Source of the DNA: a virus
Strand: one strand, 5' to 3'
DNA length: 36,652 nucleotides
IMG/VR virus record: IMGVR_UViG_3300048588_000135
Location: 1-36,652 of that record
Shown here: piece by piece, positions 3,394 to 36,048 of the stretch
Layout: the number at the start of each line of letters is the position of its first letter
How positions within the stretch are numbered: position 1 is the first letter of the stretch
Program-made: the position numbers and the translations under genes
Notes under the pieces: generated by a model
The model's input: the letters and a program-made list of their open reading frames with translations, nothing else
The model's database searches: none
What the model was told of the DNA's origin: nothing

Positions 3394-3634
3394 TGGGCTT
3401 TTTGATTTACAAGAATTTCACGGATGGCCACCAACAACAGTAAACAATTATTTTGAAGAGAAAGGGTGGGAAATGATTGATTGCTTTAATGATTATAAAT
3501 GGGCTTGGGTAAATCATTCTCTTAATAAATCTATTGTTGCAAAAACTGAAATGGTAGATGAAGATGCTTTGGGAAATGAAATGATAGTTGATATTTGGTG
3601 GTATGATGGGATTTATTCAGAGCCTTGCAGCTAA
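3332..3634 (+). CDS. Cassette 4 protein, hypothetical; start lies within attC-like site
   Basis: A 100-residue acidic protein rich in Trp and Tyr (GWPPTTVNNYFEEKGW, YKWAWVNHSL, VDIWWYDGIYSEPCS), with no recognised family. The chosen ATG at 3332 lies in the loop of site D, so the first 18 codons (MENKTSINHEDGNDANRL) come from the preceding recombination site and the rest from cassette 4. No ATG occurs early in cassette 4 itself. The stop is the TAA of the core GCAGCTAAC. The protein would therefore depend on which site lies upstream. Whether the native start is here or at a TTG at 3383 is uncertain. Confidence 0.5.
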   Translation: MENKTSINHEDGNDANRLLAAGLFDLQEFHGWPPTTVNNYFEEKGWEMIDCFNDYKWAWVNHSLNKSIVAKTEMVDEDALGNEMIVDIWWYDGIYSEPCS

Positions 3635-3671
3635 CACCGATATATCCCAATGTGGTTATATTGGTGGATAA
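3627..3671 (+). repeat. Distal boundary hairpin of plus array (shared with minus array)
   Basis: The core GCAGCTAAC at 3627-3635 leads into a hairpin: CACCGATATA at 3635-3644 pairs with TATATTGGTG at 3657-3666. The sequence from 3632 to 3671 is repeated at 29770-29809 on the minus strand with 39 of 40 bases identical, and weak similarity continues for about 15 more bases. Identity on the left stops at the variable part of the core. The right end lacks a canonical GTT core (GTGGATA). After this point ordinary phage sequence resumes. Confidence 0.8.
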
Positions 3672-3705
3672 CCCAAATGGAATAGTACTATCTGATATTG
3701 GAATA

Positions 3706-4137
3706 ATGAAAGATATATTTGTTGACATCGGAATAACAAAAGGCAGCGCGGTAGTAATGGTGGACCACGAAAACAAAAGTATTGCCGTTTTAAAAAGGTT
3801 TTGCGCAGGCGAATTAATAGATCTCTTTTTAACCGAAAAAGGCACTATTTTCATCGAGGACAGTAATTTAATCAAAGGCAGTTGGCACGGAGCAACTTCG
3901 CGCGAAAATGTTGGTAAAAATAAAGGCTTTTCATCCGCTATTTTCCAAATTCTAAACCACAAAGGAATAACTATCAAACCGCTAAAACCAAGCGGTTATA
4001 GTAGTTTCTTTGAAAAACACAAACTAGAAAAAATTTTCAAGAACAAGCCAAAAAAAACAAACACCGACCAGCGCGCAGCTCTAGCAATGGCATTACTACA
4101 TTCATCAAGCCCAATTCAAAACTATTTATTTATTTAG
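3706..4137 (+). CDS. RuvC-like Holliday junction resolvase
   Basis: A 143-residue protein with an RNase H-like RuvC arrangement. The ATG at 3706 begins MKDIFVDIGITKGSAVVMVD, with the first acidic residue at about D7 in the DxGxxxG strand. IFIEDSNLIKG places the second acid at about E51. NVGKNKGFSSAI and IKPLKPSGY follow, and TNTDQRAALAMAL near 119-130 gives the C-terminal acid. Such enzymes cut branched DNA before packaging. I chose this start because an upstream in-frame extension is encoded by the array hairpin. The stop overlaps the 20-base promoter element of the next operon. Activity is inferred from fold motifs. Confidence 0.65.
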   Translation: MKDIFVDIGITKGSAVVMVDHENKSIAVLKRFCAGELIDLFLTEKGTIFIEDSNLIKGSWHGATSRENVGKNKGFSSAIFQILNHKGITIKPLKPSGYSSFFEKHKLEKIFKNKPKKTNTDQRAALAMALLHSSSPIQNYLFI

Positions 4138-4215
4138 AATGATTATAAATTACATTATTTTGTAACTATTTATGTAACTATTTGCATGTTATTAAAGTAT
4201 AATATAATATATTTG
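4133..4215 (+). promoter_or_regulatory. Early promoter with conserved 20-bp upstream element (copy 1)
   Basis: TTTAGAATGATTATAAATTA is at 4133-4152. TTTG follows at 4181-4184, then AAAGTATAAT and TATATTTG at 4208-4215. The whole block closely resembles 35953-36023, including the 23-base spacing between TTTG and TATATTTG. It should drive the 4280-6485 operon, leaving a leader of about 60 bases. The upstream element may bind an activator or the phage repressor. Confidence 0.7.
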
Positions 4216-4279
4216 AGTAGCAAGCTAAAACAAGTTCAGCACACACGGTTATAAGAAAAGAAATAGAATCTTTAAGCAA

Positions 4280-4579
4280 ATGAGAAAAGATGCTAAAATA
4301 GTTCGGAAAGTTTTAGAAATTAGCCAGAACAGTAGGGATGATGTTAATGAGTTATACGCCTGCTATTTGGGCGAAAAAGGCTTTAATGTTTTTTCCCTTG
4401 CCTATATTGACATTGTAAAATACATAGCACAGGGGCGTATAAAATCAATAGAAACCATCTCTAGGCTCAGTAGGTTAGCCCAGCAGAAACATATAGAACT
4501 GAGAGGCAAGGAGTGGGGGCGAAGACAGAATCAGGCACGAAAAGTAAGCAACCAAATAATAAATAATGAATATGAATAA
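4280..4579 (+). CDS. Hypothetical early protein, helical
   Basis: A 99-residue protein, first gene behind the promoter at 4133. It is mostly helical and ends in a strongly basic segment (RLAQQKHIELRGKEWGRRQNQARK). Residues 10-75 (KVLEISQNSRDDVNELYACY..., then FSLAYIDIVKYIAQGRIKSIETISRLSRLAQQ) look like a compact helical bundle, possibly nucleic-acid binding. I recognise no family. It overlaps the DUF3127 gene by 14 bases, which suggests co-translation. Confidence 0.65.
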   Translation: MRKDAKIVRKVLEISQNSRDDVNELYACYLGEKGFNVFSLAYIDIVKYIAQGRIKSIETISRLSRLAQQKHIELRGKEWGRRQNQARKVSNQIINNEYE

Positions 4580-4871
4580 TCAACTATCTATCACCCTAGA
4601 AGGTGTTTTATTAGACAAAATGGAGGTGCAAAATGTTAGCCCAACTTTCACAAAGCAAGATTTCGTTTTGCAGGTGGAAACAAATAATGGCAAGGAGGTG
4701 TTTTTCGATTTCGTGAAAATTACGGCTTCAAAAATAATTCCAGCGCTGGAAAATATCCCGACAGGCTCGAATGTCCGTGTTTTCGTGAACATAAAAGGCA
4801 ACAAAGTGGAGAAGTTTCCAAACACAAGCTATTTCACGAATTTAAACGCTTGGAAAATTGAACAGATATGA
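4566..4871 (+). CDS. DUF3127-family OB-fold protein, probable single-strand DNA-binding protein
   Basis: A 101-residue protein resembling the DUF3127 family common in Bacteroidota and their phages, thought to be an OB-fold single-strand-binding protein. The family layout is present: an opening strand (LSITLEGVLLDKMEVQNVS), KQDFVLQVETNNGKEVFFDFV (about 26-46), and the closing strand with Trp, SYFTNLNAWKIEQI, at the C-terminus. A second ATG two codons downstream is an alternative start. It sits between the early helical gene and a small hypothetical gene, in the operon that ends with the YqaJ nuclease. SSB function is inferred. Confidence 0.7.
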   Translation: MNMNNQLSITLEGVLLDKMEVQNVSPTFTKQDFVLQVETNNGKEVFFDFVKITASKIIPALENIPTGSNVRVFVNIKGNKVEKFPNTSYFTNLNAWKIEQI

Positions 4872-5125
4872 TAGGCGAAATTATCAAAATATATCTAAAT
4901 GGCGAAAGAGAAGAGCTGTTCAGCCGTGTCGGTGATTTTACATTTGGTGAAATAGTGTCTTTTAAGGCTGAAACAAATGTATCTATTTACGGGATTAAGC
5001 GCATTTTCTACGTTGTTAAGCCTGTTCACGAGGTCGTTAAGCCGAAAAAAGTAATAGACGCAAGATTCGTTCAATTCACTGAGCCTCCAACGGTATTCAA
5101 AAGAATTGTTTTAAAAGATTATTAA
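4868..5125 (+). CDS. Hypothetical early protein
   Basis: An 85-residue protein predicted to be beta-rich (MIGEIIKIYLNGEREELFSRVGDFTFGEIVSF...), with the repeats VVKPVHEVVKPKK in the middle. It overlaps the DUF3127 stop by four bases (ATGA), so it is translationally coupled to it. Its stop lies in a degraded cassette core (ATTAACGGATAGT at 5121-5133), so the C-terminus may have been replaced by a cassette insertion. The remnant reading frame at 5643-5696 could be its original tail, but that is speculative. Confidence 0.6.
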   Translation: MIGEIIKIYLNGEREELFSRVGDFTFGEIVSFKAETNVSIYGIKRIFYVVKPVHEVVKPKKVIDARFVQFTEPPTVFKRIVLKDY

Positions 5126-5880: not shown

Positions 5881-6485
5881 GCCCCAGCAGAATGGGTAAG
5901 ATCACTGGGTCAAGCTGCCATATCTTATTTCCCAAGAGAGAAAACAAAACAACACAAGAGAGCTATGCCATGGAACTAGCAATCGCTAAGCTTTTTAACT
6001 ATCGGCAAAACGCATCTTCTTGGCAGATGGACCATGGGCACACACGCGAAGCAATGGCAATGGATATATTTAGAAATACCTACCCATTTGCCTATTTCCC
6101 TGAATTCAAAAGCCTTGGAGAATACGGAGGATCAGCAGACTGCATGATTCCAGACGAAGATTTTGGGGTTGACTTCAAGTGCCCGACTAGCTTAGAAAAG
6201 TGGCTATCTTACCTAAATGGCGTAGACCACCAACAGGAGCGACAGGCTCAGATGTATATGTGGTTGTATGAAAAGCCAAAATGGAAGATCATCGCGTTTT
6301 TAAATGAAACCAACTTTATGATAGATAGCGGAGAAGCATACCCAGTCCCCCCTGGAAAAAGGTTTATTGTTTGCGAAATTCACAGAGACCCGTTGTTTGA
6401 AGCGCAAATACAAGAGCGTGGTGCCATCCTTTTAAAACGAAGGGATGAAATCATTGAAGAGCTTAAAATAAAATTAAGTATTTAA
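5874..6485 (+). CDS. YqaJ-family (lambda exonuclease-like) PD-(D/E)xK nuclease
   Basis: A 203-residue protein of the YqaJ viral recombinase family, which resects double-strand ends to make single strands for an annealase such as the ERF protein at 245. The motifs in order are HGHTREAMAMDIF (E59), GGSADCMIPDEDFGVDFKC (D89, then D100-x-K102), and QQERQAQMYMWLY (about 120-132). The length is normal for the family. The ATG at 5874 overlaps the preceding gene by seven bases. The operon ends here, with a strong terminator at 6534. ERF plus this nuclease forms a Red-like recombination pair split over two operons. Confidence 0.85.
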   Translation: MLSPSRMGKITGSSCHILFPKRENKTTQESYAMELAIAKLFNYRQNASSWQMDHGHTREAMAMDIFRNTYPFAYFPEFKSLGEYGGSADCMIPDEDFGVDFKCPTSLEKWLSYLNGVDHQQERQAQMYMWLYEKPKWKIIAFLNETNFMIDSGEAYPVPPGKRFIVCEIHRDPLFEAQIQERGAILLKRRDEIIEELKIKLSI

Positions 6486-6533: not shown

Positions 6534-6570
6534 AACACCAGTAGAGAAGGTCTTTACTGGTGTTCTTTTG
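6534..6570 (+). terminator. Intrinsic terminator of the early operon
   Basis: AACACCAGTA at 6534-6543 pairs perfectly with TACTGGTGTT at 6555-6564 and is followed by CTTTTG. It lies about 50 bases after the YqaJ stop. The T-run doubles as the -33 box of the next promoter. Confidence 0.85.
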
Positions 6571-6597
6571 AATTATAAAAAAAAAGACTTATATTTG
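6567..6597 (+). promoter_or_regulatory. Consensus Bacteroidota promoter for the leader RNA
   Basis: TTTG at 6567-6570, a 19-base spacer that includes a run of A, and TATATTTG at 6590-6597. This matches the consensus exactly. The expected start is near 6602-6605, the first bases of the closing stem of the RNA at 6604-6684. Confidence 0.75.
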
Positions 6598-6603
6598 AAT
6601 AGT

Positions 6604-6684
6604 TGTAGCAGCGACTAGTAACGATACTGGCAATGATAGGTGCAATGCCTAGAACCGCCATTAAAGCCAATGGATGCTGCTACA
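6604..6684 (+). ncRNA. Structured RNA with a four-way-junction fold upstream of terminase
   Basis: A perfect 9-bp closing stem, TGTAGCAGC (6604-6612) with GCTGCTACA (6676-6684), encloses three hairpins: CTAGT/ACTGG (6615-6619, 6626-6630), TAGG/CCTA (6637-6640, 6648-6651) and CCATT/AATGG (6658-6662, 6669-6673). It starts almost exactly at the predicted transcription start of the promoter at 6567. The closing stem and third hairpin cannot coexist with the terminator hairpin at 6665-6694, so the RNA may switch between two folds. It is not a normal tRNA: the arm lengths are wrong and there is no T-loop sequence. It could be a riboswitch-like leader, a packaging-related RNA or an independent small RNA. 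Folding was done by eye. Confidence 0.6.
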
Positions 6685-6698
6685 TCTGTTGGCTTTTG
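6665..6698 (+). terminator. Terminator hairpin competing with the leader RNA fold
   Basis: AGCCAATGGATG (6665-6676) pairs with CATCTGTTGGCT (6683-6694) in a 12-bp stem with two wobble pairs and the loop CTGCTA, followed by TTTG. Its stem and loop consume the 3' strand of the closing stem of the RNA at 6604-6684, so the two structures exclude each other. The U-run is short. Confidence 0.6.
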
Positions 6699-6851
6699 TC
6701 ATTTTGCGCCATATAGCAAATATAAGGGTGAAAACTTTTAAGACGCTCCCCCAAAGGTTTATCAAAACTATTTTAAATTATAGGCATGGACGCAAAGCAC
6801 TTTCCTCTATAAGCCAAAACCAAGCGAGAAACTCATTCGACAGCTGTTATA

Positions 6852-6909
6852 GGTAATAGGAGATGCTTAATCTTCTTAGGGGGTAGGGGGTTAAGCACTT
6901 TCTATTACC
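6852..6909 (+). other. Long hairpin with G-rich loop in the leader region
   Basis: GGTAATAG (6852-6859) pairs with CTATTACC (6902-6909). After a symmetric 5+5 base internal loop, GCTTAA (6865-6870) pairs with TTAAGC (6891-6896). The apical loop holds two runs of five G. The loop contains GGTAGGGGGTT (6882-6892), the same word as in the tandem repeat at 34541. No strong T-run follows, so it looks more like a protein- or RNA-binding structure than a terminator. Confidence 0.45.
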
Positions 6910-6933
6910 TTCCTTCACTCAAATCTATTCTCT

Positions 6934-7003
6934 AGCTGTTAGCTGTTAGCTGTTAGCTGTTTTTTCTCAATTAGAATTTTCACGAATTTTCACGAATTTT
7001 CAT
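6934..7003 (+). repeat. Two short tandem repeats upstream of the terminase gene
   Basis: AGCTGTT occurs four times in a row at 6934-6961, then GAATTTTCAC three times at 6974-7003 (the last copy ends CAT). They lie between the hairpin at 6852 and the late promoter at 7039. They could be binding sites for a packaging or regulatory protein, for example the small terminase, or simple slippage products. Confidence 0.55.
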
Positions 7004-7038
7004 AAAACACTATTTAGAACCTTTTTAAATAAAAATTG

Positions 7039-7046
7039 TATATTTG
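7039..7046 (+). promoter_or_regulatory. -7 box of the probable late promoter
   Basis: TATATTTG at 7039-7046 lies 22 bases before the terminase start codon. A TTTAGAA sequence at 7013-7019 occupies the -33 region but is not a consensus TTTG. TTTAGAATCAATCTAAA follows the -7 box and is a small palindrome that could be an operator. This is the natural promoter for the late genes from 7069. Confidence 0.5.
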
Positions 7047-7068
7047 TTTAGAATCAATCTAAATAGAT

Positions 7069-7527
7069 ATGGCTAACCCAGTAGGTAGACCCAGAGGCAT
7101 AAAATCACCCGAATTACTTTGGGAGCTTTTTTTAGAGTATAAAAAAGAAGTTAAATCAAAACCTTTTCTCGTTCATGACTTCGTGGGGAAAGATGGAATT
7201 TCTGTTTACAGAGAAAAAGAGAAGTGCTTAACCATGGAAGGCTTCGAAGATTTTATAGTAGAAAGCCCAAAAACAACAATAACTTTTGCGGATATTGATC
7301 CATATTTAAAGGGAGAATACGAGGAATATTCCTTAATCTCTGCGCGTATAAAGAAAAGAATACGTGAAGATCAGATCACAGGAGGCATGGCAGGGGTGTA
7401 TAATGCTAACTTAACAGCTCGACTTAACGCGTTAAGTGAGAGCCAAAATATTGACATCACAGAGAAGCGCAAAACAGCTTTAGAACTATTTCCCGAAATT
7501 CCTGAGATAGATGGCGAGAGCGATTAA
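7069..7527 (+). CDS. terS: Terminase small subunit, gp3-like
   Basis: A 152-residue DNA-recognition subunit of the packaging motor. The family pattern is present: the opening GRPRGIKSPELLWELFLEYK, then KEKCLTMEGFEDFIV (about 56-70), and the characteristic C-terminal RIREDQITGGMAGVYNANLTARLNAL (about 103-128, with GGMAGVYN at its core). It is the first gene of the late operon, and its 3' end overlaps the large subunit gene by 17 bases. Subunits of this family form a ring that selects viral DNA. Call is confident from sequence and context. Confidence 0.85.
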   Translation: MANPVGRPRGIKSPELLWELFLEYKKEVKSKPFLVHDFVGKDGISVYREKEKCLTMEGFEDFIVESPKTTITFADIDPYLKGEYEEYSLISARIKKRIREDQITGGMAGVYNANLTARLNALSESQNIDITEKRKTALELFPEIPEIDGESD

Positions 7528-29405: not shown

Positions 29406-29434
29406 TTGTGTATGTGTTTTGGTCTTATAACTTT

Positions 29435-29467
29435 CAAATATAGTGTTTTATACATTGTTGTAAAACA
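29435..29467 (-). promoter_or_regulatory. Promoter and operator of the XRE gene
   Basis: On the minus strand TATATTTG (29442 to 29435) is a -7 box, 30 bases from the ATG. Between it and the -33 region lies the palindrome TGTTTTA-N10-TAAAACA (29444-29467 on the plus strand), with 7-bp perfect arms. A repressor bound here would block RNA polymerase. The likeliest ligand is the XRE protein itself. Confidence 0.6.
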
Positions 29468-29485
29468 TTATGTTTCAAATATCTT

Positions 29486-29505
29486 TAATTTATAATCATT
29501 CTAAA
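29486..29505 (-). promoter_or_regulatory. Conserved 20-bp promoter element (copy 3)
   Basis: Exact copy of TTTAGAATGATTATAAATTA read on the minus strand, upstream of the XRE gene promoter. Unlike the other three copies, it is not followed by the AAAGTATAA block. It lies about 60 bases upstream of the predicted transcription start. Confidence 0.7.
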
Positions 29506-29510
29506 TAAAA

Positions 29511-29744: not shown

Positions 29745-29769
29745 TGTTAATATAATTATTCGGTTTGGT

Positions 29770-29814
29770 TTATCCACCAATATAACCACATTGGGTTATA
29801 TCGGTGTTATCGGC
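29770..29814 (-). repeat. Distal boundary hairpin of minus array (shared with plus array)
   Basis: On the minus strand the core GCCGATAAC (29814 to 29806) runs into the same 40-bp hairpin found at 3632-3671 in the plus array; 39 of 40 bases are identical. CACCGATATAACC pairs with GGTTATATTGGTG. The core is complementary to the start of the DUF3560 cassette (GTTATCGGC). Phage sequence follows. Confidence 0.8.
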
Positions 29815-29816
29815 AA

Positions 29817-33714: not shown

Positions 33715-33748
33715 GATTCTTAGTTTTTAAGTGTCTTATTTAATGATT

Positions 33749-33819
33749 CAAATATACCTATTTATACTTTAAAAATAACAAAATAGTTTTAAGAAATAGT
33801 AATTTATAATCATTCTAAA
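33749..33819 (-). promoter_or_regulatory. Early promoter with conserved 20-bp element (copy 4, minus operon)
   Basis: On the minus strand: TTTAGAATGATTATAAATTA (33819 to 33800), TTTG (33782 to 33779), AAAGTATAA, and TATATTTG (33756 to 33749). The TTTG to TATATTTG gap is 22 bases, close to the 23 of the plus-strand copies. It should drive the entire minus array through 29511. Confidence 0.72.
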
Positions 33820-33865
33820 TAGCGAGCGTGGGTTTTATAGCGGAAAAAATGTTTTACTTTTGGGT

Positions 33866-34118: not shown

Positions 34119-34271
34119 ATGATACATGAACGAATAAGAGAACTAGGCATTAAAAAAATGTGGCTAGCCAAGAAAATAGGCATTAGCAATGTTTTGTTGT
34201 CGTACTATTTAACAGGCAGCAGACCCATGCCTGACAGAATTAAAAAGAAAATACTAGAAATTCTAGGTTGA
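34119..34271 (+). CDS. Small HTH protein, Cro-like
   Basis: A 50-residue protein that is essentially only a helix-turn-helix: IRELGIKKMWLAKKIGISNV (about 6-25) and LLSYYLTGSRPMPDRIKKKI. It resembles the core of Cro/XRE-type proteins, but without the usual C-terminal dimerisation strand. It lies upstream of the replication genes and may control the early promoters. Start chosen at the ATG after the -7 box. The next gene begins about 40 bases later. Confidence 0.6.
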   Translation: MIHERIRELGIKKMWLAKKIGISNVLLSYYLTGSRPMPDRIKKKILEILG

Positions 34272-35679: not shown

Positions 35680-35957
35680 AAAGTAAAAGAATGAAAGCGC
35701 TAGAGGGCGCAGCGCATAGCTATATTGAGGCGTTTTGTAAGAAGCAAGAGATGGAATTTGAGGGCACTATCGGAGTGTGTGAAATAGTTATCTGCAGCGA
35801 CTTCTATTTCAGTTTTCAGGATATAGTTCACGACATTGAAACAAAGCAGCCAAAAGGTCTTATAATTAAATGGTATTATGATTCAATTGATTTTCACCCG
35901 AAAGTTTTAAACTATAAAAGTTTTTGCATTGGCTTAAGGTTTGAACATATTGTTTAG
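35676..35957 (+). CDS. Hypothetical early protein
   Basis: A 93-residue protein (MKSKRMKALEGAAHSYIEAF, CKKQEMEFEGTIGVCEIVIC) with a beta-rich end (PKGLIIKWYYDSIDFHPKVL, NYKSFCIGLRFEHIV). It overlaps the preceding gene by four bases. Its stop lies inside the 20-bp promoter element at 35953. No family recognised. Confidence 0.6.
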   Translation: MKSKRMKALEGAAHSYIEAFCKKQEMEFEGTIGVCEIVICSDFYFSFQDIVHDIETKQPKGLIIKWYYDSIDFHPKVLNYKSFCIGLRFEHIV

Positions 35958-36023
35958 AATGATTATAAATTACAGAAATATAAAACTATTTGTATGTTAC
36001 TAAAGTATAATGTATTATATTTG
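35953..36023 (+). promoter_or_regulatory. Early promoter with conserved 20-bp element (copy 2)
   Basis: TTTAGAATGATTATAAATTA at 35953-35972, TTTG at 35989-35992, AAAGTATAAT and TATATTTG at 36016-36023. It should drive 36049 through the circular junction, ERF and the plus array. It is the closest relative of the block at 4133. Confidence 0.72.
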
Positions 36024-36048
36024 AACAACAAAATAAACAAGTGAAGAA

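Follow-up and report, generated by a model that had tools for sequence, protein, structure and literature searches.

A candidate attenuator-like RNA element between the early and late operons of a Bacteroidota siphovirus

To our knowledge, early-to-late gene switching in Bacteroidota phages is poorly known, and a literature search found no study on the subject. Bacteroidota hosts use a different sigma factor and promoter. In phage lambda, the PR'/6S RNA/tR' arrangement brings together, where early genes give way to late ones, a constitutive-type promoter, a short RNA and an intrinsic terminator, while phage phi29 encodes a structured RNA, the pRNA, near its packaging genes. The lambda late leader works by a Q-dependent antitermination mechanism (PMC7171158). 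The put RNA of HK022, structured and ~70 nt long, forms the extreme 5' end of its transcript immediately after the promoter (PMC9378689), and termination in the pT181 leader is induced by an antisense RNA (PMC5703833).

The window analysed here is the whole 36,652-nt stretch of IMG/VR record IMGVR_UViG_3300048588_000135, a circular genome of ~36.5 kb as indicated by 147-nt direct terminal repeats. The virus is a siphovirus of the Flavobacteriia type with Bacteroidota as host group; its large terminase is nearest to those of Cellulophaga phage Nekkels_1 (42%) and of Flavobacterium phages. The early genes, including Erf, SSB and an exonuclease, end at 6485, and the late genes begin at 7069 in the order terS, terL, portal, protease and capsid. 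The two groups are separated by a gap of 583 nt that contains a candidate switch-like element, located 3' of the terminator-like hairpin of the early operon and 340 nt before terS, with another large hairpin in between (Table 1).

As in lambda PR'/6S RNA/tR', a promoter and, by prediction, a short, terminator-ended RNA precede the late genes; unlike in lambda, an RNA stem is predicted to compete with the terminator, no Q homologue was recognised, terS seemingly has its own promoter, and the host belongs to the Bacteroidota. With the put RNA the element shares its place at the extreme 5' end of the predicted transcript, but put acts on the polymerase and suppresses distant terminators, whereas here the element's own terminator lies inside the switching region. 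A structured RNA near packaging genes also recalls phi29 pRNA, from which the locus differs in having no Rfam match, a terS of the classic TerS/TerL system, and terS relatives that mostly leave no room for an RNA. Competition between an upstream leader segment and a terminator hairpin, with possible antisense control, is known from pT181/pIP501 (PMC5703833); here, however, the setting is a phage late operon with no rep gene, and the antisense RNA is a prediction from a -7 element and would cover the terminator.

Table 1. Positions in the window of the features in and around the early/late gap, and of a promoter class found elsewhere in the genome
Feature	Position	Strand	Details
Last early gene, RecE-like / phage exonuclease	5874..6485	+	phrog_149, E 4.8e-12
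Terminator-like hairpin closing the early operon	6534..6564	+	just 5' of the 6602 promoter
Bacteroidota sigma-A promoter	6568..6597	+	TTG 6568-6570, 19-nt spacer, TATATTTG 6590-6597; exact consensus
Stem S1, 5' arm (competitor of the terminator)	6604..6612	+	TGTAGCAGC; 9 perfect pairs with 6676-6684
State 1 inner hairpins	6615-6630, 6637-6651, 6658-6673	+	cloverleaf form
Terminator-like hairpin (state 2)	6663..6696	+	AAAGCCAATGGATG-CTGCTA-CATCTGTTGGCTTT; 14 pairs including G-U, 6-nt loop, then TGTCATTTTG
Stem S1, 3' arm	6676..6684	+	GCTGCTACA; doubles as terminator loop and top pairs
Minus-strand TATATTTG	6717..6724	-	predicted antisense start 6712; RNA would span the whole element
Near-perfect ~60-nt palindrome	6851-6910		loop with TAGGGGGTAGGGGG, no U-tract; z -3.8 as single-stranded DNA
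Tandem repeat TAGCTGT x4.1	6933-6961		upstream of terS; one unit fewer in the near-identical genome
Tandem repeat GAATTTTCAC x2.9	6974-7002		upstream of terS
-7 element TATATTTG, likely of a promoter serving terS separately	7039..7046	+	start 7051, 18-nt leader
terS (small terminase subunit), first late gene	7069..7527	+	phrog_606, E 1.6e-12
Regions of four TTTAGAATGATTATAAATTA promoters	4130-4229, 35950-36037, 29433-29508 (-), 33736-33821 (-)

Promoters and the two predicted folds

The preliminary description of this DNA had placed a consensus promoter immediately before a 9-bp perfect stem, and both were confirmed. The former matches the Bacteroidota sigma-A consensus exactly. Since the last G of the -7 element has been measured at -5 relative to the transcription start in F. 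johnsoniae (PMC6847099), the predicted start is G6602, 2 nt 5' of the stem (S1), which thus begins at +3. Full-consensus intergenic sites (TAHHTTTG plus TTG at 18-19 nt spacing) occur only twice in the genome, and the second, with its start at 34119, precedes the early operon running from 34314 to 6485. The -7 element directly before terS is not accompanied by a -33 TTG; three other terS loci (L013, L014 and L020) also carry a -7 element immediately 5' of the gene. On one reading, 6602 serves constitutive host-type transcription and 7051 represents another promoter class.

State 1 is built on S1, and the three hairpins said to lie inside the stem can indeed fold as a cloverleaf (-25.9 kcal/mol), but a rod-like fold is better (-28.4 kcal/mol). 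State 2 is the terminator-like hairpin. It had been described as a 12-bp hairpin sharing the 3' strand of S1; hairpin and overlap are real, while the pairs number 14 when G-U is included and the shared strand amounts to the 6-nt loop and the top pairs. The hairpin is followed by a U-tract, which is interrupted (TTTTGTCATTTT). In predicted energy the two states are close to balance at -28.4 versus -30.1 kcal/mol, ~2 apart.

Ensemble folding of the growing transcript predicted an upstream pairing that forms earlier than the terminator and excludes it. S1 had a pair probability of 0.96-1.0 with RNA up to 6680-6690 and persisted until ~6692, and the terminator reached 0.92 at RNA end 6694 and 0.995 at 6696-6698; these are equilibrium values at each length and not a kinetic simulation. 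In the finished RNA the terminator fold stood at 0.99, with the 5' end left free. Assuming that ~10 nt are held inside the polymerase, the folds would exchange at polymerase positions 6702-6704, within the U-rich stretch, and this predicted timing is that expected of an attenuator. The claim that only one fold can form is thus supported by ensemble folding in a qualified form: since the 3' strand of S1 lies within the 6-nt loop and the top pairs of the terminator, exclusivity is mostly topological, and a partial pseudoknot of this arm with the terminator is possible.

The arrangement exceeded chance expectation. A hairpin of at least 12 bp overlapped by a stem of at least 9 bp from 40-90 nt upstream occurred once in the window and in 0 of 3,256 dinucleotide-preserving shuffles of it. 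Folding energies gave z-scores of -3.5 for 6602-6686 and -2.8 for 6602-6700, and a 5'-anchored 9-bp stem, given the start, is expected by chance in ~0.9% of cases.

Family and comparative searches

No named RNA family matched the element, which by prediction is attenuator-like: nothing in Rfam reached the gathering threshold. Of the riboswitch or attenuator logic proposed earlier, the exclusive folds with a terminator were borne out by ensemble folding and the riboswitch part found no family. The fluoride riboswitch was rejected (18.7 bits versus 34 needed, with the second stem of the family missing), as were miRNA-family matches, which reflect chance similarity to hairpins. Mimicry of a tRNA, also suggested by the cloverleaf, was not borne out either, as ARAGORN detected no tRNA-like fold.

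The sole other copy found, in IMGVR_UViG_3300048834_000177, is identical across the element. Over the 8.85 kb compared, this genome and the window differ at 7 mismatched positions and by a single repeat unit of 7 nt, and because it is near-identical overall the 0 changes in the 100 nt of the element are uninformative. In viral contigs, the 9-bp arms with a gap gave 43 matches, none alike beyond the near-identical genome, which was also the only one recovered with a 17-mer of hairpin 2 and the only one alike among 29 matches to a pattern of both cores plus the terminator arm. A pattern of promoter and 5' arm showed no diverged relative among the at least 119 matches listed, nor did blastn against phages and plasmids. 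A single-sequence covariance model returned three weak matches (E 0.004-0.04, poor alignments) from 395 genomes of the host phylum, and over the terS loci no homologue, the match in L018 being a tandem repeat. In the sequences searched, the element thus appears to be an orphan at present.

A packaging RNA, which its position before terS had brought to mind, is disfavoured. Among 92 distinct terS upstreams (including that of the near-identical genome), nearly all have an upstream gene overlapping or touching terS, and gaps of at least 200 nt were found besides this phage only in L002 and L004. This rarity argues against a packaging RNA that accompanies terS, and agrees with a function at the head of a transcription unit. 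The L002 gap (4520-4985) is long and non-coding and contains numerous GTAGCAACA/TGTTGCTAC motifs, which occur in either orientation. In L004 (IMGVR_UViG_3300009678_000881), whose terS is distantly related, a -7 element is found 194 nt 5' of the gene, and the leader (2353-2500) is unrelated in sequence but occupies the same place. Two mutually exclusive stems of 8 and 9 bp, ATGAGTAA/TTACTCAT and GTAAATAAA/TTTATTTAC, can form there between the RNA 5' end and either of two segments further 3'; a two-stem leader of this type arose in ~1 in 4,000 shuffles, a figure to be read with the knowledge that the case was noticed after inspecting many loci. The overall folding energy of this leader does not stand out (z -1.3) and no obvious terminator was seen, so that the parallel is suggestive only.

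Attenuator and alternative readings

We tentatively favour the reading that the element is a promoter-proximal conditional terminator, that is an attenuator, at the junction of the early with the late operon. Host sigma-A holoenzyme would initiate at 6602 without help from the phage, and the nascent RNA would fold into S1, trapping the future loop and upper stem of the terminator in the wrong pairing. While the polymerase moves over the U-rich stretch (~6697-6706), the 3' arm of the terminator would emerge and compete for the same bases. If the terminator wins, an RNA of ~100 nt would be released; with a stabilised S1 or a slow exchange, the polymerase would continue toward terS, so that read-through would feed this gene. 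Regulation would consist in setting this balance by some signal, which may be a factor of the host, a phage protein located at the paused complex, an antisense RNA or polymerase speed. The exact promoter 2 nt before the stem, the near-balanced energies, the uniqueness of the pattern in the window and the position at the operon boundary speak for an attenuator, as do the placement of the sole other full-consensus promoter at the head of the early operon and the exclusive stems of the L004 leader. Against it stand the interrupted U-tract, the absence of a homologue beyond the identical copy and hence of covariation, the 340 nt and the further large hairpin that separate the element from terS, and the failure to recognise a Q-like antiterminator: a scan of the early and flanking ORFs found no Q family, and the phage may encode a diverged or novel one. 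Moreover, with a likely promoter of its own at 7051, terS would not need read-through. If the attenuator reading is true, a two-state terminator at the early/late boundary would be a compact and concrete element and would set an RNA-based example alongside Q and put of enterobacterial phages. We regard as improbable the more far-reaching idea that the early-to-late transition is timed by an RNA switch which needs no protein and senses a host metabolite, some host factor or an antisense RNA, and that the same two-stem logic evolved at the same place in unrelated sequences of other phages, as in L004.

The main rival, which we consider rather unlikely, is a free-standing small RNA of ~100 nt with its own promoter and terminator whose targets in trans would be RNAs of the phage or the host, S1 being mere internal complementarity and terS being transcribed from 7051. 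A promoter plus an intrinsic terminator is the canonical layout of intergenic sRNAs in Bacteroides (PMC7366714), and the predominance of the terminator fold in the finished RNA with its free 5' end, as well as the likely terS promoter 18 nt before the terS ATG, agree with such an RNA. However, no phage target stands out, since the best duplex (-40.5 kcal/mol) falls at about the 5% point of shuffled RNAs and is not significant, and the RNA is not conserved in other phages. Furthermore, one would not expect a plain sRNA to carry a perfect 9-bp competitor of its terminator, which has no obvious use there, and for this reason the attenuator is favoured over the small RNA, though not strongly.

That the RNA folds are incidental to a DNA-level element, in which abundant inverted and direct repeats would serve packaging or replication, seems improbable. 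The gap does hold the ~60-bp near-palindrome and the TAGCTGT (x4) and GAATTTTCAC (x3) tandem repeats, which are possible sites for TerS or a replication protein, and the motif-rich gap of L002 offers a counterpart in a terS relative. But these repeats lie 3' of the element and not inside it, most terS relatives lack such a gap, and a DNA site would need neither S1 2 nt past a predicted start nor its location within a terminator.

Slightly less probable still is an antisense-controlled attenuator of the pT181/pIP501 type, in which a minus-strand RNA from 6712 would pair with the leader, remove the S1 arm and favour termination. This start would lie 16 nt past the end of the terminator stem, facing the sense start, and antisense-induced termination in the pT181 leader provides the precedent (PMC5703833). 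The minus-strand site, however, has no -33 TTG, no clear antisense terminator was found, and RNA from 6712 would mask the terminator arms too; a lone -7 element can be due to chance, as 37 TAHHTTTG sites occur on both strands of the window, many of them within genes.

A 5' leader of a small protein is very improbable: the 60-aa (6674-6856) and 27-aa (6633-6716) ORFs both begin within the element, but each has a codon score of -0.09, near the wrong-frame median (~-0.06) and well under real genes (0.17), and RNA structure buries the ATG at 6674. As to the earlier statement that the gap contains no protein gene, small ORFs (27, 33 and 60 aa, without a match to any protein family or phage) do exist; the 60-aa and 27-aa ORFs have non-coding scores, and the score of the 33-aa ORF falls in the ambiguous zone of overlap.

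Further observations in the window

The likely terS promoter is flanked by an operator-like inverted repeat, CTATTTAGA / TCTAAATAG, at 7010-7018 and 7059-7067. Four other promoters (starts 4220+, 36028+, 33744- and 29430-) have in common a 20-nt element, TTTAGAATGATTATAAATTA, upstream of TATATTTG, which is likely a regulator site marking a phage promoter class.

A ~368-bp segment with an 87-aa ORF lies at 1263-1630 of the window; in the near-identical genome it is found at 1206-1571, inserted between window positions 3634 and 3632, and the place corresponding to 1263 holds a different sequence. The junctions share only AA (GCTAA/CATAA). By comparison of the two genomes, it appears to be a small moving gene segment; an integron cassette inserted at 3634 was rejected, since the core sites fit poorly. 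Finally, a 67-nt inverted repeat pair occurs at 3625-3691 and 29750-29816, the copies being 87% alike and each capable of forming a hairpin, and one copy coincides with the place where the moving segment is inserted.
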